From: Smithella sp. | GTDB taxonomy: Bacteria > Desulfobacterota > Syntrophia > Syntrophales > Smithellaceae | Assembly (NCBI GenBank): GCA_012510495.1 | Contig: JAAZHX010000297.1 | Span: forward strand, 1 to 40,353 | Length of the DNA: 40,353 bases | Direction of reading: 5' to 3' | Shown here: positions 2,556-24,485 of the stretch, piece by piece | Layout of the letters: each line of letters opens with the position of its first letter | How positions within the stretch are numbered: the stretch's first letter is position 1 | Program-made: the position numbers and the translations under genes | The notes under the pieces: generated by a model | Databases searched by the model: none | The model's input: the letters and a program-made list of their open reading frames with translations, nothing else | What the model was told of the DNA's origin: nothing

Positions 2556-4727
<2,172 letters not shown>

Positions 4728-6012: not shown

Positions 6013-6138
6013 TTAATTTATTTGCAGCAAACGGGCTTTTTCGTTCAGCCGCCACGGCGCTTTGCCTGTCGGTTTGGTTGTGCCGGCTGGAGCGGCCGGC
6101 TTTCTTGCGGCTTTTATTTTCGGGGAGGTTGTTTTCAT
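6013..6138 (-). CDS. 41-residue basic protein or leader peptide before the aminotransferase
   Basis: An ATG at 6136-6138 is preceded at ideal distance by AAGGAGGG (6145-6152), the best ribosome-binding site on this side of the window. It opens a 41-residue frame rich in Lys, Pro, Ala and Thr (start MKTTSPKIKAARKPAAPAGT, end KAPWRLNEKARLLQIN). The stop overlaps the leader of the aminotransferase, whose ATG begins 7 bp downstream. The N-terminal half looks disordered and basic, the last 16 residues could form an amphipathic helix. No family is recognised. It may be a real small protein or a translated leader that couples translation of the aminotransferase. Confidence 0.5.
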   Translation of the reverse strand: MKTTSPKIKAARKPAAPAGTTKPTGKAPWRLNEKARLLQIN

Positions 6139-6250
6139 TGGTTGCCCTCCTTGAGGCAGGAGAAGAGAATCTTGACACGACGCTTCGATTCATAATTACC
6201 TGAAAAAAAGGCTGGTGTAAAGGACGCAAAATTGTTGCCGACAGCCTTGT

Positions 6251-14848: not shown

Positions 14849-15496
14849 TTATGACAGAAGGTTCTGGAGTTTGACAAGGCCTGCGTAGGCAAAATAACCG
14901 GCAAAACCGATCAGGAAAACGGCGCAAAGGCCGATCAGCCAGCGGTAAAGCCGGTCGGTCAGCAGGTGTCTGCCCCTGTCCACCGCGCCGGAGATGAAAG
15001 AATACCAGGCCAGATCCGCCGAAATGTGACCGGCGAAGAAAAAGGAAATGCCCCACAAGCCGTACTGCCAGGCGTAAAAAATATATCCGATGCCGATCGT
15101 CGCCCACCAGATGATCCAGTAGGGATTGGAAACGCTCATCAGAATTCCGCTGACCACCGGATGATTCATTTTGCCTTGCCTGGGTTCCCATGAAAGCCGA
15201 AGGGTGGGCAAAGACCGCAGCATTCCCGCCGCCATCCAGACCAGAATGACCGCGCCCGCCAGCGCGCTTGCCACAAAAACAGCCGGCATCCGGAAAAACG
15301 GCGCCAACCCCAGGAAAAGAGCGATCACCAGCGTCAGTTCCAGAATGGCATGCCCGGCGATCAGAAGCGGCCCGGCCCAAAAACCCCGCCGGGAGCTTTC
15401 GCTGATCGTCGCGGTCAGAAGCGGCCCCGGCATCAGCGCGCCGGAAAGCGCGATGACAAACGAGGAGGCAAAAATGGTGAGCAGGGTAAACAGCAT
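14849..15496 (-). CDS. LysE/RhtB-family exporter
   Basis: A 215-residue inner-membrane protein with about six hydrophobic spans. The N-terminus FASSFVIALSGALMPGPLLT matches the LysE/RhtB family start (the G-x-x-x-P-G-P block), and NPYWIIWWATIGIGYI is the second conserved loop (usual N-P-x-x-x-x-W/F). These proteins export amino acids or similar metabolites. The start ATG at 15494-15496 is chosen because the longer frame runs into the upstream repeat; the ribosome-binding site is weak. The substrate is unknown. Confidence 0.88.
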   Translation of the reverse strand: MLFTLLTIFASSFVIALSGALMPGPLLTATISESSRRGFWAGPLLIAGHAILELTLVIALFLGLAPFFRMPAVFVASALAGAVILVWMAAGMLRSLPTLRLSWEPRQGKMNHPVVSGILMSVSNPYWIIWWATIGIGYIFYAWQYGLWGISFFFAGHISADLAWYSFISGAVDRGRHLLTDRLYRWLIGLCAVFLIGFAGYFAYAGLVKLQNLLS

Positions 15497-15606
15497 GGAT
15501 ATTGCTTTCTTTAAGCGGGACCGTTCCGCGCCGCTGACGGGCAAGTCCGGCCCGGCTGTTTTGGTTGGCCGGGCTTTGGATATGTACCACAAGTGAGATA
15601 AGAAGT

Positions 15607-15666
15607 CTTCTGGATAAAATTCGTCAGGGAACGCTCGTGATAACCTGAAGGTCGCGAGCCGTTCCC
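15607..15666 (+). repeat. Left copy of a 60-bp hairpin repeat flanking the defence block
   Basis: These 60 bp match 22767-22826 in the same orientation at 57 of 60 positions; the three differences are all C in the right copy and T here. The inner part forms a stem of GGGAACG...CTCG with CGAG...CGTTCCC around AACCTGAAG. In one frame it still reads LLDKIRQGTLVIT then stop, the last codons of the SWIM gene found at the right end. Confidence 0.8.
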
Positions 15667-15696
15667 TGCCATTGCGGCGACATTCATCAAGTCTTC

Positions 15697-15739
15697 TTTG
15701 ACAGGTCGGTTAATAAGTGCTATTGACTGACCTGTCAAA
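15697..15739 (+). promoter_or_regulatory. Operator/promoter region of the toxin-antitoxin operon
   Basis: TTTGACAGGTC (15697-15707) and GACCTGTCAAA (15729-15739) form a perfect 11-bp inverted repeat with a 21-bp spacer. The left arm also contains a TTGACA -35 box (15698-15703). This is the expected layout for autorepression by a Phd/RelE complex. A poor -10 (TATTGA) lies 17 bp downstream. Confidence 0.65.
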
Positions 15740-15759
15740 AAACTGATCGGGAGGATTCC

Positions 15760-16038
15760 ATGAAAACCAGCATTAAATACTCCGAAGATATTGTCCCTAT
15801 TACCGATTTGAAAGTCAATCCGGGCCGCATTGTCAATCAGGTCGAGAAAACCCGACGGCCGGTGCTTTTGACCAGCCGGGGGCGAGGGGTGGCCATTGTC
15901 GAGTCGGTCAAAGATTATGAGGAAAGAACGGAAGAACAAGCCTTCTTGCGCGGAGTAGTTCAGGGTCTTGTTGATATTGAGGAAGGTAGAGAAATCAGCC
16001 TTGCCGAAGCGAAAAAGCGCCTGGGATCGGGTAAATAA
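15760..16038 (+). CDS. Phd/YefM-family antitoxin
   Basis: A 92-residue protein starting MKTSIKYSEDIVPITDLKVN, with the Phd/YefM N-terminal DNA-binding fold (ITDLKVNPGRIVNQVEKTRRPVLLTSRGRGVAIV, residues 18-51 overall) and a charged C-terminal helix that would wrap the toxin. GGGAGG stands 5 bp upstream of the ATG. The toxin gene follows after 2 bp. It should neutralise the toxin and repress the operon through the inverted repeat upstream. Confidence 0.9.
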   Translation: MKTSIKYSEDIVPITDLKVNPGRIVNQVEKTRRPVLLTSRGRGVAIVESVKDYEERTEEQAFLRGVVQGLVDIEEGREISLAEAKKRLGSGK

Positions 16039-16040
16039 TC

Positions 16041-16343
16041 ATGCCGCAGAAAAAGCCGATCACTTTTGCGATTTCAGCCTTTGACGACCTGGAGACCATT
16101 CGCGCCTGGTATCAGGATCAGCAGGTGCCGGAGGTCGGCGGGCAATTGACTGAAGAAATTCTTGCGCAGATCGAGAGGCTGGCGGATTTTCCCGAGAGTG
16201 GCCGGGTGGTTCCGGAATTCGGCATTGCCAACCTGAGGGAAATCATTTATCTTCCTTTCCGGATCGTTTACCGCCTTGATGGAAACAAAGTAAAAATCGT
16301 GCGGATTTGGCGCAGCGAAAGACTGCTCACGATGCCTCTTTAA
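16041..16343 (+). CDS. RelE/ParE-family toxin
   Basis: A 100-residue member of the RelE/ParE superfamily. The conserved C-terminal half reads NLREIIYLPFRIVYRLDG then VKIVRIWRSERLL, with the usual R..YR and closing R residues; the N-terminal half is two helices (DLETIRAWYQDQ). It directly follows its antitoxin. Members either cleave mRNA on the ribosome (RelE) or block gyrase (ParE); the sequence does not decide, but FPESGRVVPEF is common in the ParE-like group. The pair precedes mod by 13 bp and may be transcribed into it. Confidence 0.9.
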   Translation: MPQKKPITFAISAFDDLETIRAWYQDQQVPEVGGQLTEEILAQIERLADFPESGRVVPEFGIANLREIIYLPFRIVYRLDGNKVKIVRIWRSERLLTMPL

Positions 16344-16356
16344 TAAGGGTGAATCT

Positions 16357-18237
16357 ATGGATGGAAAATCTTTGAACATATCGGATGAGAAGCTCAACCA
16401 ATTAAAAGAAATCCTGCCGGAAGCTTTTAGCGAAAATAAAATCGACTGGGAAAAACTCAAAGCCGCGCTGGGCGACAATATCGAATTTAAAAATGAGCGC
16501 TATGTGCTCAACTGGGCGGGAAAATCCGACGCCTTCCGCGCTTTGCAGGCGCCATCCACGGCGACGCTTGTGCCTGTCAAAGAAGAATCCGTAAATTTCG
16601 AGGAGACGGAAAATATATTTATCGAAGGCGAAAATCTGGAAGTTCTGAAAGTTTTGCAGAAAAGTTATTTCGGCAAGATCAAAATGATTTACATTGATCC
16701 GCCCTACAATACCGGAAACGATCATTTTATCTATCCCGACAGATTTACGGAGTCCAGAGAAGAATATCTGAGCCGAATCGGCAACAAGGACGAGGCGGGC
16801 TTGATGACGCGCGAAGGCTTGTTCCGCAAAAACAGCCAGGACAGCGGACATTATCATTCCAACTGGCTTTCCATGATGTACCCGCGCCTGTTTCTGGCGC
16901 GCAATCTCCTGCGCGACGACGGCGTAATTTTTGTTTCCATTGACGACAACGAGGTGCATAATCTCAGATTATTAATGAATGAAGTGTTTGGAGAGGAGAA
17001 TTTTGTTGCAGACATAATATGGGAAAAAAGATTTACGCGAAACAATGATGCTAAATTAATGTCTTCCGTATATGATCATACGCTGCTTTTCAGAAAAAGT
17101 GAATCGTGCGCAATTCTACGTGAGCCGAGAACAGAAAAATCTAATGCCATTTATTCAAACCCAGATAATGATCCTCGTGGTGATTGGACAAGCGTTTCTT
17201 ATATTAGCCAAAGAAGTTTAGAAGAACGTCGTAATCTTTCCTATCCAGTATTCAACCCAAAGAAAAAAAAGTACGTAAAGCATCCCACAAATGCCTGGAA
17301 ATACAGTAAGGAACAATACGAATTGCATCACAGTGAAAACAGACTATATTGGGGCAAAGAAGGTGATTACGAACTTCCACGATTAAAGCGATTCCTTTCT
17401 GAATTGAAAGAAGGAATTGTGCCTATCAATTTCTGGAATTATAAAGAGACTGGTACAATTGACGATGGAACAAAAATAGTCGACTTGCTGTTAGGTAAAG
17501 GCGTGTTTGATTATCCTAAACCAACGACTTTAATTAAGCGAATGCTAGCAATGACGACAACAAATAACGATATCATCCTCGACTTCTTTGCCGGTTCCTG
17601 CACCACTGCCCACGCCGTTCTTGCGCTCAACAAAGAAGACGCTTCGACAGGCTCTGCAAAGACCGGCAACCGTAAATTCATCTGCGTTCAATTGCCGGAA
17701 AAATGTGATGAAAGTTCTGAAGCTTTCAAAGCCGGTTACAAAACCATCGCCGAAATTGGCAAGGAGCGCATCCGCCGCGTTATAAAAAAAATCAAGGAAG
17801 AACAGGAAGGCAAACTCGATCTGGACGGCAACAGCGAAAGAGATTTGGGCTTCAAAGTATTCAAACTTCAGGAATCCAACTTCAAAATCTGGCGGACCAA
17901 TATCGAAACGGAAGAAGAACTGGTTGCGCAAATGCAGCGGCATCTGGAGCCGCTGGATGAAAACGCCAAGATTGAAGATGTGCTTTATGAACTGCTTCTC
18001 AAAGCCGGCGTATCATTGACGGCAAAGATTAAGAATGAAAAAGGGTTTGTTCTTGCCAATGATGACGAAGTTGCTCTGATGCTGGAAAAAGCCGATGAAA
18101 AGATTATCAAGCAAATCATCGCCGCAAAACCGAAGAAAATTTTCACGCTCGACAGACTATTCAAAAACAACGACAAACTCAAAACCAACACCGCCCTGCA
18201 AATGAAAGACGCAGGCATTGAATTTAAAGTCATTTAA
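16357..18237 (+). CDS. mod: Type III restriction-modification methyltransferase (Mod)
   Basis: A 626-residue adenine-N6 methyltransferase that recognises and methylates one strand of an asymmetric site and is also needed for cleavage by Res. The order is beta-class: catalytic DPPYNTG at 114-120 (motif IV), then a target-recognition region, then SAM-binding DFFAGSCTTAHAV near 408-420 (motif I). DNA for residues about 203-406, exactly the recognition region, is visibly richer in A+T than the flanks. Near residue 429 the stretch ASTGSAKTG breaks a normally continuous block (LNKED ... GNRKFICVQLPE) and looks like a small in-frame insert. AAGGGTG precedes the ATG. Confidence 0.93.
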   Translation: MDGKSLNISDEKLNQLKEILPEAFSENKIDWEKLKAALGDNIEFKNERYVLNWAGKSDAFRALQAPSTATLVPVKEESVNFEETENIFIEGENLEVLKVLQKSYFGKIKMIYIDPPYNTGNDHFIYPDRFTESREEYLSRIGNKDEAGLMTREGLFRKNSQDSGHYHSNWLSMMYPRLFLARNLLRDDGVIFVSIDDNEVHNLRLLMNEVFGEENFVADIIWEKRFTRNNDAKLMSSVYDHTLLFRKSESCAILREPRTEKSNAIYSNPDNDPRGDWTSVSYISQRSLEERRNLSYPVFNPKKKKYVKHPTNAWKYSKEQYELHHSENRLYWGKEGDYELPRLKRFLSELKEGIVPINFWNYKETGTIDDGTKIVDLLLGKGVFDYPKPTTLIKRMLAMTTTNNDIILDFFAGSCTTAHAVLALNKEDASTGSAKTGNRKFICVQLPEKCDESSEAFKAGYKTIAEIGKERIRRVIKKIKEEQEGKLDLDGNSERDLGFKVFKLQESNFKIWRTNIETEEELVAQMQRHLEPLDENAKIEDVLYELLLKAGVSLTAKIKNEKGFVLANDDEVALMLEKADEKIIKQIIAAKPKKIFTLDRLFKNNDKLKTNTALQMKDAGIEFKVI

Positions 18238-18255
18238 ACCCGGCATGAACCAAGC

Positions 18256-18420
18256 GGCGCGATTGGAGATCGCGCCCTGCAATGGTGGGTGTAGGGATTG
18301 TTCACCGAACAATCCGAAAAACAAACATGCGGCGCATTCAGGGAATGCGCCCTACATCTATTTCATGCGGGGACGGCTCTCCGAGCAGTCCGCAATAATT
18401 AACGGCGCGGAGATCGTGCC
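18256..18420 (+). repeat. Array of five short palindromes between mod and res
   Basis: Five hairpins lie in a row at 18256-18276, 18295-18315, 18331-18351, 18371-18391 and 18404-18420. The first four are each 21 bp with 9-bp arms and a 3-nt centre. Arms are GGCGCGATT/GATCGCGCC, GGATTGTTC/GAACAATCC, GGCGCATTC/GAATGCGCC, GGACGGCTC/GAGCAGTCC; the last is shorter (GGCGCG/CGTGCC). All begin GG and end CC, so sequence differs while pairing is mostly kept. Start-to-start spacing is 33-40 bp. The array fills the 203-bp gap between mod and res. Confidence 0.8.
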
Positions 18421-18440
18421 CTACCAAGGCTTAAAATAAA

Positions 18441-21059
18441 ATGAAATTCCATTTTGACCCTGATCAACAATTTCAGCACGATGCGATAAATTCTGTTGTC
18501 AGTGTTTTTGAAGGCCAGCCGTTGAACCAAGGCGGCTTCGATACTTTATTCGGCGACGCGCTTTTTCAGGACGCAGGCGTCGGGAATCGTCTTATTCTTG
18601 ACGAAGATCAAATTCTGGAAAACGTCAATGCCGTGCAAAAAGCAAACGGACTTACTGTTACAAATAGCCTGGACGGCATGAACTTTTCCGTGGAGATGGA
18701 AACAGGCACCGGAAAAACCTATGTTTATCTGCGCACAATCTACGAACTGAATAAAAAATACGGCTTTAAAAAGTTTGTGATTGTTGTGCCGTCCATCGCT
18801 ATCCGCGAAGGAGTGCTGAAGAATCTGGAAATTACATTCGATCATTTTCAAAATCTTTACGACAAAACGCCGGTAAATTATGTTGTCTATGATTCCAGGC
18901 GAGTCTCCGCTCTCAGAAACTTTTCCGACAACAACAATATTCAGATATTGGTCATCAATATTGATTCATTCGCCAAAGACGAAAATATCATCAATAAACC
19001 GAATGACCGGTTGACAGGGAAAAGGCCCGTGGAGTTTATTCAGGTGACCAGACCTATTGTCATAGTGGATGAACCGCAAAACATGGAAACGGAAATCAGA
19101 GCAAAAGCCATCGCCAATCTAAATCCGCTTTGCACCTTGCGCTATTCCGCAACGCATACAAACCGTTACAATATGGTTTACAGTCTTGATCCGGTGAAAG
19201 CCTATGATTTGGGTCTGGTCAAGCAGATAGAAGTTGATTCGGTCGTTACGGAAAATGATTTTAACGAGGCCTTTATTGCCTTGGAAAAAGTTACGGCGAC
19301 AAGAACAAGAACATCAGCGAAAATAAAAATAGATGTCAACACTGCCGATGGCGTCAAACGCAAAACTGTAACCGCTAAAGTCGGCGATGATTTATATGAG
19401 TTGTCCGGCAAACGCGAAATTTATAAAAGCGGCTGCATTATCAACGGCATTGATGTTGGCGATGGTTTTATGGAACTTTCCAACGGCGAAACGATTTATA
19501 CAGAGCAGGCAAGAGGCGGACTCACTGATGACGTCATGAAAGTGCAAATCAGAAAGACTCTCGATGAGCACTTTATAAAAGAAAGAAAGTACAAGGATAA
19601 AGATATAAAAGTGCTTTCTCTTTTCTTTATTGACCGTGTTGCCAATTATCGCAGTTACGATGCGAGCGGCAGCACCGTGAAAGGTAAGTTTGCCCGGTGG
19701 TTTGAAGAAATATACAAAGAGTTGTCTGAAAAAAGTCAGCATAAAGGGGTGATTCCTTATCATGCTGATGAAGTCCATAACGGTTATTTCTCGCAGGATA
19801 AAAAGGGCAATTGGAATGATACGAAGGGAAACACGCTGGCTGATAATGATACTTTCAAGCTGATTATGAAAGATAAGGAAAGGCTCCTGGATATTCATGA
19901 GCCTTTGCGTTTCATTTTCAGTCACTCCGCATTGCGCGAAGGTTGGGATAATCCCAATGTTTTTCAGATTTGCACGCTCAACGAAACGCATTCCGAACTG
20001 AAAAAAAGACAGGAAATCGGCCGGGGGTTAAGGCTTCCCGTCAATCAGGAAGGAATTCGCATTCAAGATTCCAACATCAATCGGCTGACAGTGATTGCCA
20101 ATGAGTCGTATGAGGAATTTGCCAGGAAGCTTCAGGCTGAAATTGAAGAAGATTGCGGCGTATCTTTTAAGGGAAGAGTTAAGAGAAAGCAGGATCGTGA
20201 AAAAGTGAAATATCGCAAGGGGTTTGAACTGGATGCGAAGTTCAAAGATATCTGGAACAAAATAAAATTTCAAACAACCTATAGGGTTGACTATGGTACA
20301 CCGGAGTTGATCAGACAGGCGGCCAAAGCAGTAAAAGACATGCCGGTCACCCGGAAAGCAGTCATCAAAACAACAAAAACAGCGGTTGAGTTTGATGAAT
20401 CCGGAATTGTGGCGGATGTTAAATCATCGTATAACATAGTTGTTGATGGAAGATTTCGCATACCGGATGTGTTGTTTTACATTCAGGAAAGAACGGAGTT
20501 GACGCGTTCTACCGTTTTGGACATTCTTTTGCAGTCAGAAAGAATCGGTGAAGCGCTCGTTAATCCGCAGCTTTTCCTGGATAATGCAGTGGCGGCCGTA
20601 AGCGGCGCATTAAACGAACTGATGATCGACGGCATCAAGTATGAAAAGATCGGCGACAAGGAATATGAAATGCGTTTGTTTGAAGACTACGATTTTCATA
20701 TCTCCGATCACACATTCAAAATCACGAGAAAAGACAAAACCATCTACAGCAATCTTTTTCCTCTCGATTCCGGCGTCGAATACGCTTTCGCCAAGGATTG
20801 CGAAGAACGCGAGGATATCGAATTTTATTTCAAGCTGCCCAACTGGTTTAAAATCAAAACGCCGATCGGCTCCTATAATCCCGACTGGGCGCTGATCAAG
20901 AAAAACGAAAAAACCGTTTATTTTGTGGCCGAAACCAAATCCGCAGGACAGGAACTGCGGATGTCCGAGAAACAGAAGGTCAAATGCGGACGGGCGCACT
21001 TCCGGGAATTTCCAGAAGTGAGTTTCAGGCAAGCGACCCATGTCAGTGATCTGGATTAA
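18441..21059 (+). CDS. res: Type III restriction enzyme, helicase/nuclease subunit (Res)
   Basis: An 872-residue superfamily 2 helicase-nuclease that works with Mod to translocate or slide and cut unmodified DNA. Walker A is METGTGKTYVYL (around residue 88), motif II is VDEPQNME (about 209), motif III-like RYSATHT follows, and motif VI lies in LKKRQEIGRGLRLP (near 527). HSALREGWDNPNVFQICTLN is a strong family mark. The C-terminal nuclease is YNPDWALIKKN with VAETKS (PD...ExK, about 813-832). There is no good ribosome-binding site before the ATG; the palindrome array lies just upstream. The enzyme looks intact. Confidence 0.93.
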   Translation: MKFHFDPDQQFQHDAINSVVSVFEGQPLNQGGFDTLFGDALFQDAGVGNRLILDEDQILENVNAVQKANGLTVTNSLDGMNFSVEMETGTGKTYVYLRTIYELNKKYGFKKFVIVVPSIAIREGVLKNLEITFDHFQNLYDKTPVNYVVYDSRRVSALRNFSDNNNIQILVINIDSFAKDENIINKPNDRLTGKRPVEFIQVTRPIVIVDEPQNMETEIRAKAIANLNPLCTLRYSATHTNRYNMVYSLDPVKAYDLGLVKQIEVDSVVTENDFNEAFIALEKVTATRTRTSAKIKIDVNTADGVKRKTVTAKVGDDLYELSGKREIYKSGCIINGIDVGDGFMELSNGETIYTEQARGGLTDDVMKVQIRKTLDEHFIKERKYKDKDIKVLSLFFIDRVANYRSYDASGSTVKGKFARWFEEIYKELSEKSQHKGVIPYHADEVHNGYFSQDKKGNWNDTKGNTLADNDTFKLIMKDKERLLDIHEPLRFIFSHSALREGWDNPNVFQICTLNETHSELKKRQEIGRGLRLPVNQEGIRIQDSNINRLTVIANESYEEFARKLQAEIEEDCGVSFKGRVKRKQDREKVKYRKGFELDAKFKDIWNKIKFQTTYRVDYGTPELIRQAAKAVKDMPVTRKAVIKTTKTAVEFDESGIVADVKSSYNIVVDGRFRIPDVLFYIQERTELTRSTVLDILLQSERIGEALVNPQLFLDNAVAAVSGALNELMIDGIKYEKIGDKEYEMRLFEDYDFHISDHTFKITRKDKTIYSNLFPLDSGVEYAFAKDCEEREDIEFYFKLPNWFKIKTPIGSYNPDWALIKKNEKTVYFVAETKSAGQELRMSEKQKVKCGRAHFREFPEVSFRQATHVSDLD

Positions 21060-21065
21060 TCGTTT

Positions 21066-22808
21066 ATGGCAATAAAGTTGGACATGGATATGGCGATGCA
21101 GCTTGCGCCGGGACGCGCGCGCGAGCGGGGCCGCGAGTATTTCGAGGACGGGCGTGTTACTGATCTTGCCGAACGCAAAGGGTTGCTTATTGCCAAGGTT
21201 GAAGGGAGCCGGACTTATACCGTCAGGATGAGCACAAAGGCGGATCAAAATTTTCGTTATTCATGCACCTGCCCGATGGGGGCAGAAGGCGAGTTTTGCA
21301 AACATTGCGTCGCCGCGGCGCTGGCCTGGATTGAGGGGCGGGTGATTAAACAAACGAAAAACGCCAGAGAGATTGGTCTTCAAGATATTGAAACCTATTT
21401 AAAAACACTGGATTTATCCATCCTTGTTGAGATGATGATGGAGCAGGCGCATCGGGATGAAGCGCTCCGGAGAAAGCTTTTTCTTAAAACGGCCAAGGTG
21501 CTTTCCTCCGGATTAGACTTTGCTTACTGGAAACGGGTGATCAAAGAAGCCTTTGCTGCACGAGACTTTGTCGATTACCATAAAGCGAGCAGTTTTGCCG
21601 ATGTCGCCTCACAAACGGTTGACGACATCGAGGAACTGCTGGAAGGCCCCTATTCATCGGAGATCATCACGCTTGCCGAATATGCTATAGAACGGGCGGG
21701 AAATGCGTTGGAGTCGATGGATGATTCCAACGGTGAAATGGGAGAGGTTTTGAATCGCCTGCAGGATATCCATTTCAAGGCTTGCCGGAAAGTGAAACCG
21801 GATCCCGCCCGGTTGGCTGAGCGTCTTTTTCATCTTGAATTGAACGGTCAGTTCGATGAATTCTATGGCGCGGTCAAAACCTATGCGCCCATTCTGGGCA
21901 AGGCGGGACTGGACACTTATCGGAACCTGGCTAATCGGGAGTGGGCAAAAATTCCTCCGCGCGTCAACCGGTGGAATGCCTGTGAGAAACAATCCCATAC
22001 GGTTTATCGTCTGTTTCATATCATGGAAACCCTGGCGGAGCTCTCCGGCGATGTCGAGCAATTGGTTGCGATCAAAAAACGAGATCTGTCTTCAGCATAC
22101 AATTACCTGACAATAGCTGAAGTATACAGGAAGGCCGGCAATAGGGATAAAGCTTTGGAATGGGCTGAAGCGGGAATCAAGGCGTTTCCCGAGCGCACGG
22201 ATGCCCGTTTGCGGGAATTTCTGGCTGATGAATACCACCGGCGTAAACGCCACGAAGAGGCGTTGAATCTCATAAGTTTGAATTTTGCGGATTACCTGTC
22301 GCTGGATCGCTATCAGCAGTTAAAACGGCATGCCGACAAGACCGATGCATGGCCTCTCTGGCGTGAAAAAGCGATGAAATTTATGCGAGCGCGCCTGACG
22401 AAACAGAAAAAGGAAATCAACCGCTGGAGTTATGATCCCGGTTACTCCGTGCTTGTGGAAATTTTCCTGTGGGAAAAAAATCCGGAAGCAGCTTGGGAAG
22501 CGGCCAATGCCGGGGGATGTTCACAAGCCATCTGGATGAAGCTTGCGGCCGTCCGCGGGCAGGACTATCCAATGGATTCCGTGGGTATTTACCGGAAATT
22601 TGTCGGCCCGACGATTGAGCAAACAAACAATCAGGCCTACGAAGACGCAATCCAACTGATCAAAAAAATTCAAGCGATCATGAACCGGCTCGGAAAGGAA
22701 AATATATTTTCCGGTTACGTGACCGAACTTCGAACCAAGTACAAAGCCAAAAGAAACTTCATCAAACTTCTGGACAAAATTCGTCAGGGAACGCTCGCGA
22801 CAACCTGA
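21066..22808 (+). CDS. SWIM zinc-finger protein with helical repeats, linked to type III RM
   Basis: A 580-residue protein with a SWIM zinc finger near the N-terminus: Cys67, Cys69, Cys78 and His80 in YSCTCPMGAEGEFCKHCVAA (CxCx8CxH). The remaining 450 residues are mostly helical, with TPR-like stretches such as YLTIAEVYRKAGNRDKALEW and WAEAGIKAFPERTDARLREF. SWIM fingers bind DNA or proteins and are common near SNF2 helicases. It starts 6 bp after res, so it is probably translated with it. Its last 14 codons lie within the right-hand 60-bp repeat. A function in restriction or regulation is inference; no direct family role is known to me. Confidence 0.85.
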   Translation: MAIKLDMDMAMQLAPGRARERGREYFEDGRVTDLAERKGLLIAKVEGSRTYTVRMSTKADQNFRYSCTCPMGAEGEFCKHCVAAALAWIEGRVIKQTKNAREIGLQDIETYLKTLDLSILVEMMMEQAHRDEALRRKLFLKTAKVLSSGLDFAYWKRVIKEAFAARDFVDYHKASSFADVASQTVDDIEELLEGPYSSEIITLAEYAIERAGNALESMDDSNGEMGEVLNRLQDIHFKACRKVKPDPARLAERLFHLELNGQFDEFYGAVKTYAPILGKAGLDTYRNLANREWAKIPPRVNRWNACEKQSHTVYRLFHIMETLAELSGDVEQLVAIKKRDLSSAYNYLTIAEVYRKAGNRDKALEWAEAGIKAFPERTDARLREFLADEYHRRKRHEEALNLISLNFADYLSLDRYQQLKRHADKTDAWPLWREKAMKFMRARLTKQKKEINRWSYDPGYSVLVEIFLWEKNPEAAWEAANAGGCSQAIWMKLAAVRGQDYPMDSVGIYRKFVGPTIEQTNNQAYEDAIQLIKKIQAIMNRLGKENIFSGYVTELRTKYKAKRNFIKLLDKIRQGTLATT

Positions 22809-22826
22809 AGGTCGCGAGCCGTTCCC
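22767..22826 (+). repeat. Right copy of the 60-bp hairpin repeat; likely terminator
   Basis: This is the partner of 15607-15666 in direct orientation. GGGAACGCTCGCGAC pairs with GTCGCGAGCCGTTCCC (one bulged G) around AACCTGAAG, giving a 15-bp stem. It overlaps the SWIM gene stop and lies 11 bp from the convergent thiolase stop, so it may act as a bidirectional terminator although no T-run follows. Confidence 0.8.
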
Positions 22827-22837
22827 CGGCGTATAAG

Positions 22838-24199
22838 TCATTTGTCCACGCGAATGAGCATGGCGTCGCCCTGGGCGTGGCCCGAGCAGATGCCGCAGAC
22901 GCCCCAGCCGCCGCCGCGCCTTTTCAGCTCATAGCCCAGCGTCATGGCGATGCGCGCTCCGGTTGCGCCGATAGGATGGCCGTAAGCCACCGCGCCGCCG
23001 TTGATGTTGACCTTTTTAAACATCTCTTCCTTCGTCATGCCCAGAATGGACCGGCAGCTCACGAGCGCCACCGCGGCAAAGGCTTCGTTGATTTCGATCA
23101 CGTCCATCTGGCCGAGCGTCATGTTGTTTTGTTCGAGGATCTTTTTGATGGCCAGCCCCGGTACGGTGGCGATGTCCTTCGTCGGCTGCGACACTTCGGC
23201 GTAATCCACGATGGTGAAGATGGGCTTGAGACCCAGTTCGTCGGCCTTCTCCCGGCTCATGAGCAGGCAGACGTCGCCGCCATCGTTGACGCCGGGGGCG
23301 TTGCCCGCCGTGACCGAGCCCGGCTTGCCGGTGACGGTGCTGGTGTGACCGAAAACCGGGGGCAGTTTGGCAAGCCCCTCCAGCGTCGTTTCCGGTCTCG
23401 GGCCTTCGTCTTTGTCCACGAGAAAGACTTTCCTGCCCTGTTTGACTTCCACCGGAAAGATCTCGTCGTCCAGTTTTCCTTCGTTCATCGCTTTCACGGC
23501 GTTTCGCTGGGAATTGAGCGCCCATTCGTCCTGCTCCTCCCTGCTGAAACCAAACTCATCGGCCACTTCGGAGCCGTGAATGGCCATGTGCCGGTTGTAG
23601 AAAGCGTCCCACAATCCATCGTACACCATGGTGTCCACCACGCGGCCGTTGGGCAGTCCCATGCGCATTCCCCAGCGCATGTCGGGCAGGGCGAAGGGGC
23701 AGTTGCTCATGCTCTCCTGGCCGCCGGCGATGCAGACTTCCGCGCGACCCAGTAAAATCATCTGAAAGGCGAGGTCAATGGTTTTGATTCCGGACGAGCA
23801 GACTTTGTTGACGGTGATGGAGGGAACGGATTCCGGCACACCCGCCAGAATCGTGGCCTGACGGCCCGGAATCTGGCCGCAGCCGGCGGGAACCACCTGG
23901 CCCATGAAAATGTAGTCCACGTCGGCGGGCTTGACTTTGCCTTCGGTCCTGCGCAGAACTTCCTGAATGGCCAGCGCGCCCAGCTCCATCGCTGAAAATT
24001 CTTTCAGGGCGCCGCCGGCCCGTCCGTAAGGCGTCCGGCAGGCTTCCACGCAGACCACTTCGCGGAATTTCCGGTGAGGGTTGCTGATTTTTCTGCCCAT
24101 AGTCGTGAAATCCGGTTTTCTTTCACCGAATCCGGCGATGGGCGCGTCTTTATAAATCTCAGATTTTTTTCGGGTCAGCTTTTGCGGCGTTTTTGACAT
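22838..24199 (-). CDS. Thiolase (acetyl-CoA acetyltransferase family)
   Basis: A 453-residue thiolase that condenses two acyl-CoA molecules or cleaves a 3-ketoacyl-CoA. The nucleophile is Cys134 in NKVCSSGIKTIDLA; the second block is INEAFAAVAL, the histidine block is NINGGAVAYGHPIGATGARI, and the last cysteine is in CSGHAQGDAM, which replaces the common CxGGGQG. About 45 residues precede the normal thiolase start (FREVVCVEACRTPYGR), an N-terminal extension of basic character. The ATG at 24197-24199 follows GGGAGGACAAC. It stands alone on its strand; acetoacetyl-CoA or longer ketoacyl-CoA are both possible substrates. Confidence 0.93.
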   Translation of the reverse strand: MSKTPQKLTRKKSEIYKDAPIAGFGERKPDFTTMGRKISNPHRKFREVVCVEACRTPYGRAGGALKEFSAMELGALAIQEVLRRTEGKVKPADVDYIFMGQVVPAGCGQIPGRQATILAGVPESVPSITVNKVCSSGIKTIDLAFQMILLGRAEVCIAGGQESMSNCPFALPDMRWGMRMGLPNGRVVDTMVYDGLWDAFYNRHMAIHGSEVADEFGFSREEQDEWALNSQRNAVKAMNEGKLDDEIFPVEVKQGRKVFLVDKDEGPRPETTLEGLAKLPPVFGHTSTVTGKPGSVTAGNAPGVNDGGDVCLLMSREKADELGLKPIFTIVDYAEVSQPTKDIATVPGLAIKKILEQNNMTLGQMDVIEINEAFAAVALVSCRSILGMTKEEMFKKVNINGGAVAYGHPIGATGARIAMTLGYELKRRGGGWGVCGICSGHAQGDAMLIRVDK

Positions 24200-24485
24200 G
24201 TTGTCCTCCCTGCTGATGGTTTGTCCGGTGCGTGGGAAAAACCGCGGATGTTTTTCAAGAACGCGTTTTTCTTGCACATCGTATTCATTTAGTCAACTGT
24301 TTTGAAGCGTGCGGGGCTGTTTAAGTGAACCCATTCGCCTGTCCGCCCGGCGCGCGGAAGGCAGTTGAAACCGTTTGACGAAAACCGATATTAATATTAT
24401 AAAAATTTCCAACACCGCCCGGCACACAGGGGTTTTGCAAGCTGCAAAAACGACTGCACGACAGATCGGAAATTTGAGATCCTCC

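Follow-up and report, generated by a model that had tools for sequence, protein, structure and literature searches.

Integrative elements of the icd/e14 type lie at the 3' ends of genes. The Helicobacter pylori study of restriction-modification (RM) genes in Nucleic Acids Res. 38:2428 is attributed to Furuta et al. In two further papers, RM genes are described as inserting with long, variable target duplications, as suggested by the comparison of related genomes (PMC3031569, PMC1643837); both papers cite Nobusato et al. 2000, and PMC3031569 also cites the Helicobacter pylori study. Titles and abstract openings in the literature yielded no description of the Smithella repeats reported here. How defence genes without a recombinase move is an open question.

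The window, a stretch of 40,353 nucleotides from the Smithella sp. assembly GCA_012510495.1 (contig JAAZHX010000297.1), contains a 60-bp direct repeat with copies at 15607–15666 and 22767–22826 that lie on the same strand and are identical at 57 of 60 positions. This pair is the sole direct repeat of the window (E 4e-20) within the limits of our survey, i.e., a length of 45–400 bp, at least 80% identity, and copies 300–15,000 bp apart. A sequence-only reading of the window had proposed this repeat and, as the enclosed genes, Phd/RelE, mod, res, and SWIM; sequence comparison agrees with the former and Pfam and PADLOC matches agree with the latter. The features of the locus are as follows.

14849–15508, reverse strand: LysE-type translocator gene, which anchors the variable site on its left (PF01810, E 3.6e-36; homologues begin near 15508)
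15529–15606, no strand: left spacer, which begins a 109-bp block common to relative G011 (15529–15637, 86% over 109 bp)
15607–15666, forward strand: left repeat copy, putative fossil SWIM 3' tail (15607–15625) and palindrome (about 15626–15666), from comparison with relatives and folding
15760–16038, forward strand: Phd/YefM antitoxin (PF02604, E 1.1e-15)
16041–16343, forward strand: ParE/RelE-superfamily toxin (PF05016, E 2.5e-15)
16357–18237, forward strand: type III modification methyltransferase, mod (PF01555; PADLOC MTase_III, E 1.2e-200)
18441–21059, forward strand: type III restriction subunit, res (PF04851, PF19778; PADLOC REase_III, E 5.8e-299)
21066–22808, forward strand: SWIM zinc finger/DUF6880 protein, PADLOC candidate PDC-S62 (Pfam, PADLOC)
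22767–22826, forward strand: right repeat copy, SWIM 3' tail and palindrome, from comparison with relatives and folding
22838–24277, reverse strand: acetyl-CoA acyltransferase (thiolase) gene, right anchor of the variable site (PF00108, PF02803; synteny)

Adjacent mod and res genes of type III families, as predicted from the models, mark this pair as a putative type III RM system. The SWIM gene starts 6 nt after res both here and in relative G012. Relatives G014 and G015 have SWIM without a detected mod of this kind and G013 has mod-res without a detected SWIM, which argues that SWIM is not an obligate RM subunit. The spacer between mod and res is variable; it measures 203 bp and holds short palindromes in the window (18238–18440), and contains extra ORFs, one of them DinD-like by eye, in G012 (L126:570-1960) and G013 (L125). 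The G+C content of the cassette is 45.8%, that of the flanks 55.2% and 56.6%, a difference in line with an inserted block. No recombinase or transposase was found among the Pfam, PADLOC, and NCBIfam matches of the five enclosed genes, and an insertion sequence or composite transposon was rejected for lack of a transposase among them. Tyrosine recombinase (PF00589) has six matches in the genome and none on contig C95, for which reason an integrase-driven island was likewise rejected.

The whole-genome search for the 60-bp unit that the sequence-only reading had suggested returned two full-length matches across the 2.8-Mb assembly, namely both window copies, while a third place (C308) matches unit positions 19–60 only, which correspond to the palindrome. 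The unit is composite: some 19 nt belong to the 3' end of the SWIM gene and some 41 nt to an intergenic palindrome of dispersed occurrence. In the right copy, the SWIM gene ends with its stop codon at 22806–22808, and 18 nt follow. Each of the three differences between the copies had been described as a T of the left copy in place of C, which holds for the letters but not for the direction of change: polarised by relatives, two (GAT/GAC and GATAACC/GACAACC) are changes of the right copy and one is derived in the left, a polarity on which few sites bear in a tail of 19 nt.

The palindrome is imperfect and has a strong predicted fold (z −3.3 in the left copy, −5.4 in the right). Two origins had been offered for the repeat, a boundary sequence carried by the element itself or the fossil that recombination had left of an earlier SWIM gene. 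The first is not supported: the palindrome belongs to a genus-wide intergenic family, and in a pattern search of the collected genus sequence 63 of 66 unique palindrome places were without the tail at 3 mismatches, two of these showing 5 mismatches. The three places with the tail beside the palindrome (at most 3 mismatches in 18) are both window copies and the SWIM end of G014, all SWIM-derived. These 3 of 66 places support the second origin, together with a left junction that is common to G011, in which no SWIM match was found. A palindrome that is itself mobile, with the 19-nt tail as its own end, would agree with its dispersal, i.e., 16 matches in this genome and an occurrence in 19 of the 20 genomes of the genus, itself included, at E 0.05, counts that are upper bounds because the query was a hand-typed consensus and some matches cover the inner loop only. 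We consider this exceedingly unlikely, as the 63 tail-less places stand against it, the tail codes for SWIM in G012, G014, and, in part, G015, and a clear link to a Y1 transposase is missing: Y1 matches occur in 14 of 20 genomes, and a RAYT link was set aside as doubtful because palindromes are also present where there is no Y1 match at 1e-5 (G008 with 11 palindrome matches, G005 with 14). An intrinsic terminator was rejected as well, since the hairpins fold well, yet by eye have no T run behind them. Members of the family (L027, L029, L030, L006) have one outer stem whose tip carries differing inner palindromes or none, and it looks as if palindromes nest inside palindromes.

LysE and thiolase genes were found on one stretch in nine of the 20 genomes (this one, G008, G010, G011, G014, G015, G017, G018, and G019); in the 11 others, the two genes are split between contigs, or one or both are below the cut-offs. 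The gap between them is a variable site in Smithella. It is nearly empty in G017 and G018, where the palindrome was not seen, holds one small ORF in G010 and G019, and amounts to about 2.9 kb in G008 and about 7.6 kb in G011. In G014 it contains a SWIM pseudogene and another cassette, in G015 an AAA/DUF4143 gene and a SWIM gene (58%) without, by eye, a palindrome of this family. Part of res (86%) and SWIM (91%) were also recovered from G012, on a small contig that ends soon after SWIM. A mod start (77% over 43 aa) and a nucleotidyltransferase-like gene (by eye) lie divergent from a broken LysE-like gene in G004 (G004:C242:1-4000, L086), suggesting that RM recurs beside LysE.

The 109 bp of 15529–15637, which span the left spacer and half of the left copy (its first), match G011 at 86% identity, and in G011 too this block lies between LysE and thiolase. 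It is present in two of the 20 genomes, this one and G011, whereas G014 matches the SWIM-tail part only. G011 has no SWIM match at 1e-5; its left block stands without a detected SWIM or mod of this kind, with other genes between LysE and thiolase. The sequence ahead of the tail is similar here and in G011 and the tail begins at the same place in both, which implies that the junction predates the split of the two genomes or was transferred. The left copy is best read as the putative fossil tail of an older SWIM gene. A further SWIM fossil ahead of the left copy was rejected, the 98-bp spacer scoring no better than shuffles (170 of 200 reach its score), and so were thiolase remains to its right (score reached by 89 of 200 shuffles). 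The recurrence of the left block in G011 between LysE and thiolase also argues against an assembly artefact in which contigs were misjoined at the palindromic repeat, as does that of the LysE–relE fossil–SWIM–palindrome–thiolase tail arrangement in G014. Such a misjoin would be in line with the 6.6% contamination of the assembly, the capacity of hairpin repeats to break assemblies, the end of the G012 contig, which falls into another repeat-like stretch 85 bp after SWIM, and that of the G004 thiolase contig about 60 bp past its palindrome; on balance it seems very unlikely.

The body of the SWIM gene is 93% identical to that of G012 (1582 of 1701 positions), and its stretch at 22650–22749 is identical at 99 of 100. 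From the repeat boundary on, identity falls to 13 of 19 in the tail (binomial P 0.0014); in the body, 1 of 1683 windows of 19 nt reaches six differences. Like the G011 fossil, both window copies read CTT and, in place of a lost TAG stop codon, CAG; the corresponding letters of G012 and G014 are CTG and TAG. A CGT is common to both window copies and does not occur in G011, G012, or G014; the tail of G015 permits no gap-free alignment at this position. Without this TAG stop, which G012 and G014 retain, the SWIM protein is read on into the palindrome, from which its C-terminal QGTLATT derives. The mosaic tail and the lost stop indicate that the tail was taken from, or converted by, the fossil; judged by these letters, the SWIM end recombined with the fossil, the protein thereby gaining QGTLATT. 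Compared with G012 in 100-nt windows, res has an identity of 69–76% in 20050–20649 and of 93–97% in 20650–21049. This step near 20650 probably reflects a recombination breakpoint inside res, and shows that the RM-SWIM block is in itself a mosaic.

We favour, by a modest degree, a homologous insertion of the RM-SWIM block at the fossil, which would have duplicated the fossil without a recombinase. An older SWIM gene with the palindrome behind it would once have stood in the LysE–thiolase gap. In the lineage common to this genome and G011, which share the block described above, this gene would have been deleted to its last ~19 nt and the palindrome, the order of events being our reconstruction. 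A phd-relE-mod-res-SWIM block with a G012-like SWIM body would later have entered and recombined with the stump via SWIM-tail homology, leaving one stump copy on each side and a SWIM 3' end rebuilt from the fossil, presumably in a single step; the mosaic tail itself is observed. SWIM would thereby have lost its TAG stop and come to read into the palindrome. Such an insertion, with duplication of a 60-bp target, would require no recombinase, and the repeats could let RecA delete or exchange the block again. The sequence-only reading had called the enclosed genes a movable defence cassette, which is plausible as a reading of the locus; the interval has no recombinase match, and at this site the relatives show exchange and no clear-cut alternation between occupied and empty states.

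Fossil and SWIM block may instead have become adjacent for other reasons, for instance as tandem SWIM genes of which one was deleted, with the 57 of 60 identities due to later gene conversion and the RM genes entering separately between relE and SWIM. We think this rather unlikely, though several observations would suit it. A relE fossil (80% over 107 bp; L070:2565-2670) precedes the SWIM pseudogene in G014, behind LysE, without RM genes; the left copy is absent from this site. A toxin-antitoxin–SWIM arrangement thus stood at the G014 site earlier or independently, and one-step insertion of the whole block is not forced. The internal breakpoint in res near 20650 also suits gene conversion, and conversion between two older copies would give the same shared letters. 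More events are required, however, than for homologous insertion at the fossil, and conversion alone does not account for the displaced tails that accompany unrelated cassettes elsewhere, at more than one locus.

Such tails were found at the same gap in two relatives. In G014, the palindrome and thiolase 3' end are repeated with 95 of 100 positions identical (L070:4088-4187, 6089-6188) around two ORFs that resemble an HTH/AbiEii-like nucleotidyltransferase pair by eye and have no Pfam or PADLOC match. In G011, 77 bp of thiolase tail are repeated at 84% around an AMP-binding gene (L073:2015-2090, 4431-4507). The thiolase stumps of G011 and G014 share sequence beyond thiolase and may therefore stem from one event. 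Elsewhere in this genome, the tail of an Eco57I-type RM gene occurs three more times on C55 (G000:C55:32763-39684; L178:12763-19684), surrounding a SEC-C gene, an unmatched ORF of 156 aa, and genes of PDC-S05-like and Fic type. C116 (G000:C116:32532-40211; L187:12532-20000, L188:1-211) carries two additional partial copies of the tail of a different Eco57I-type gene, one behind an unmatched ORF of 273 aa, the other behind a gene for a Dsr2-like SIR2 protein (1220 of 1245 aa scanned). The SCADC locus (L133), homologous to C55 (RM 58%, Fic 88%), has its RM tail twice more, a different SEC-C gene, and no PDC-S05-like gene that we could see; the difference between the two loci is consistent with a putative exchange of cassettes between tails. 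The tails of the SCADC locus all have CGCAG at their variable end, and on C55 AAAAG is found at the RM end and in two of the three tails that are displaced, as in concerted evolution, a pattern that suits gene conversion.

The survey for direct repeats covered 1,628,428 bases from six relatives (G006, G007, G008, G009, G011, G014) and this genome including the window, a small and non-random sample made up entirely of long contigs named by earlier searches. Twenty-seven pairs were within the limits. Gene-tail pairs, in which one copy reaches the 3' end of an ORF of at least 450 aa or comes within 74 nt of it and the other is outside genes (at most under a short, spurious-looking ORF), numbered eight at five loci, namely C55 and C116, which were new to the survey, and G011:C60, G014:C69, and the window, which were known before it. 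Two pairs on G007:C57 (71734-71943 vs 80512-80832) were near misses that take up roughly the 3' half of an ORF of 220 aa, and a further pair on this contig (63373) touches the end of a spurious-looking 134-aa ORF. No gene-tail pair was detected in G008:C5 (400 kb), G006:C35 (200 kb), G009:C69 (20 kb), C4, C74, and C42 of this genome (220 kb), G011:C37, C84, and C70 (140 kb), or G014:C42, C89, and C47 (140 kb). The other pairs consisted of paralogues, repeats located between genes or within a single gene, displaced-tail pairs in C55, and a duplicated gene 5' end on G011:C37. The latter (L202:590-731, 1785-1926) stands before a Fic-like gene (by eye) and is a mirror-image case. The survey suggests an enrichment of gene-tail repeats at defence loci in this small, non-random sample, in which two of the five gene-tail loci involve thiolase, not a defence gene.

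These loci also bear on a site-specific element (integrative mobilizable element (IME), integron-like, or composite transposon) with the 60-bp repeats as its att sites and a recombinase that was lost or acts in trans. Att sites are comparable in length and in their placement at a gene 3' end, and the six tyrosine recombinase matches elsewhere in the genome could provide the enzyme. We nevertheless judge such an element quite improbable: the interval is without a recombinase match, and repeat length and target vary among the analogous loci (SWIM, thiolase, two RM tails) with no common core by eye, the attC consensus having been sought by eye only. Homologous insertion at the fossil, our preferred reading of the window, may extend to the other loci. 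Tentatively, and as a possibility that we would not yet rely on, defence loci in Smithella may grow and turn over recombinase-free, with cassettes docking by homology on the 3' tails of resident or fossil genes and leaving a tail each time. The stacks of RM tails (C55, C116, SCADC), the thiolase tails (G011, G014), and the SWIM stump would then be successive scars, and the palindromes at some tails possible points of breakage or exchange. Tail duplications surround SEC-C, Fic, PDC-S05-like, Dsr2-like, and nucleotidyltransferase-like (by eye) genes. In the window, the scars are readable as a stump common to a relative and a mosaic tail with a lost stop codon, so that a homology-driven route is directly testable by strain comparison.

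Among known systems, the enclosed genes resemble type III RM systems with toxin-antitoxin and SWIM/DUF6880 genes (PADLOC PDC-S62) in that mod and res match type III models and SWIM follows res. As with integrative elements of the icd/e14 type, the gene remains intact in the thiolase and RM-tail cases and a displaced tail is present as well; unlike them, no integrase was seen in the intervals, and the stump of the window lies upstream of the intact gene, on the opposite side. For its repeats and RM genes, the window fits the description of long target duplication in Helicobacter as given in the papers that cite it: in both, RM genes with no known recombinase are bounded by long direct repeats of the target. 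It differs from the Helicobacter case, as far as those papers describe it, in that a gene fossil with homology to the final gene of the cassette itself appears to have served as target, a dispersed palindrome forms part of the repeat, and the letters of the fossil are found at the end of the incoming gene.
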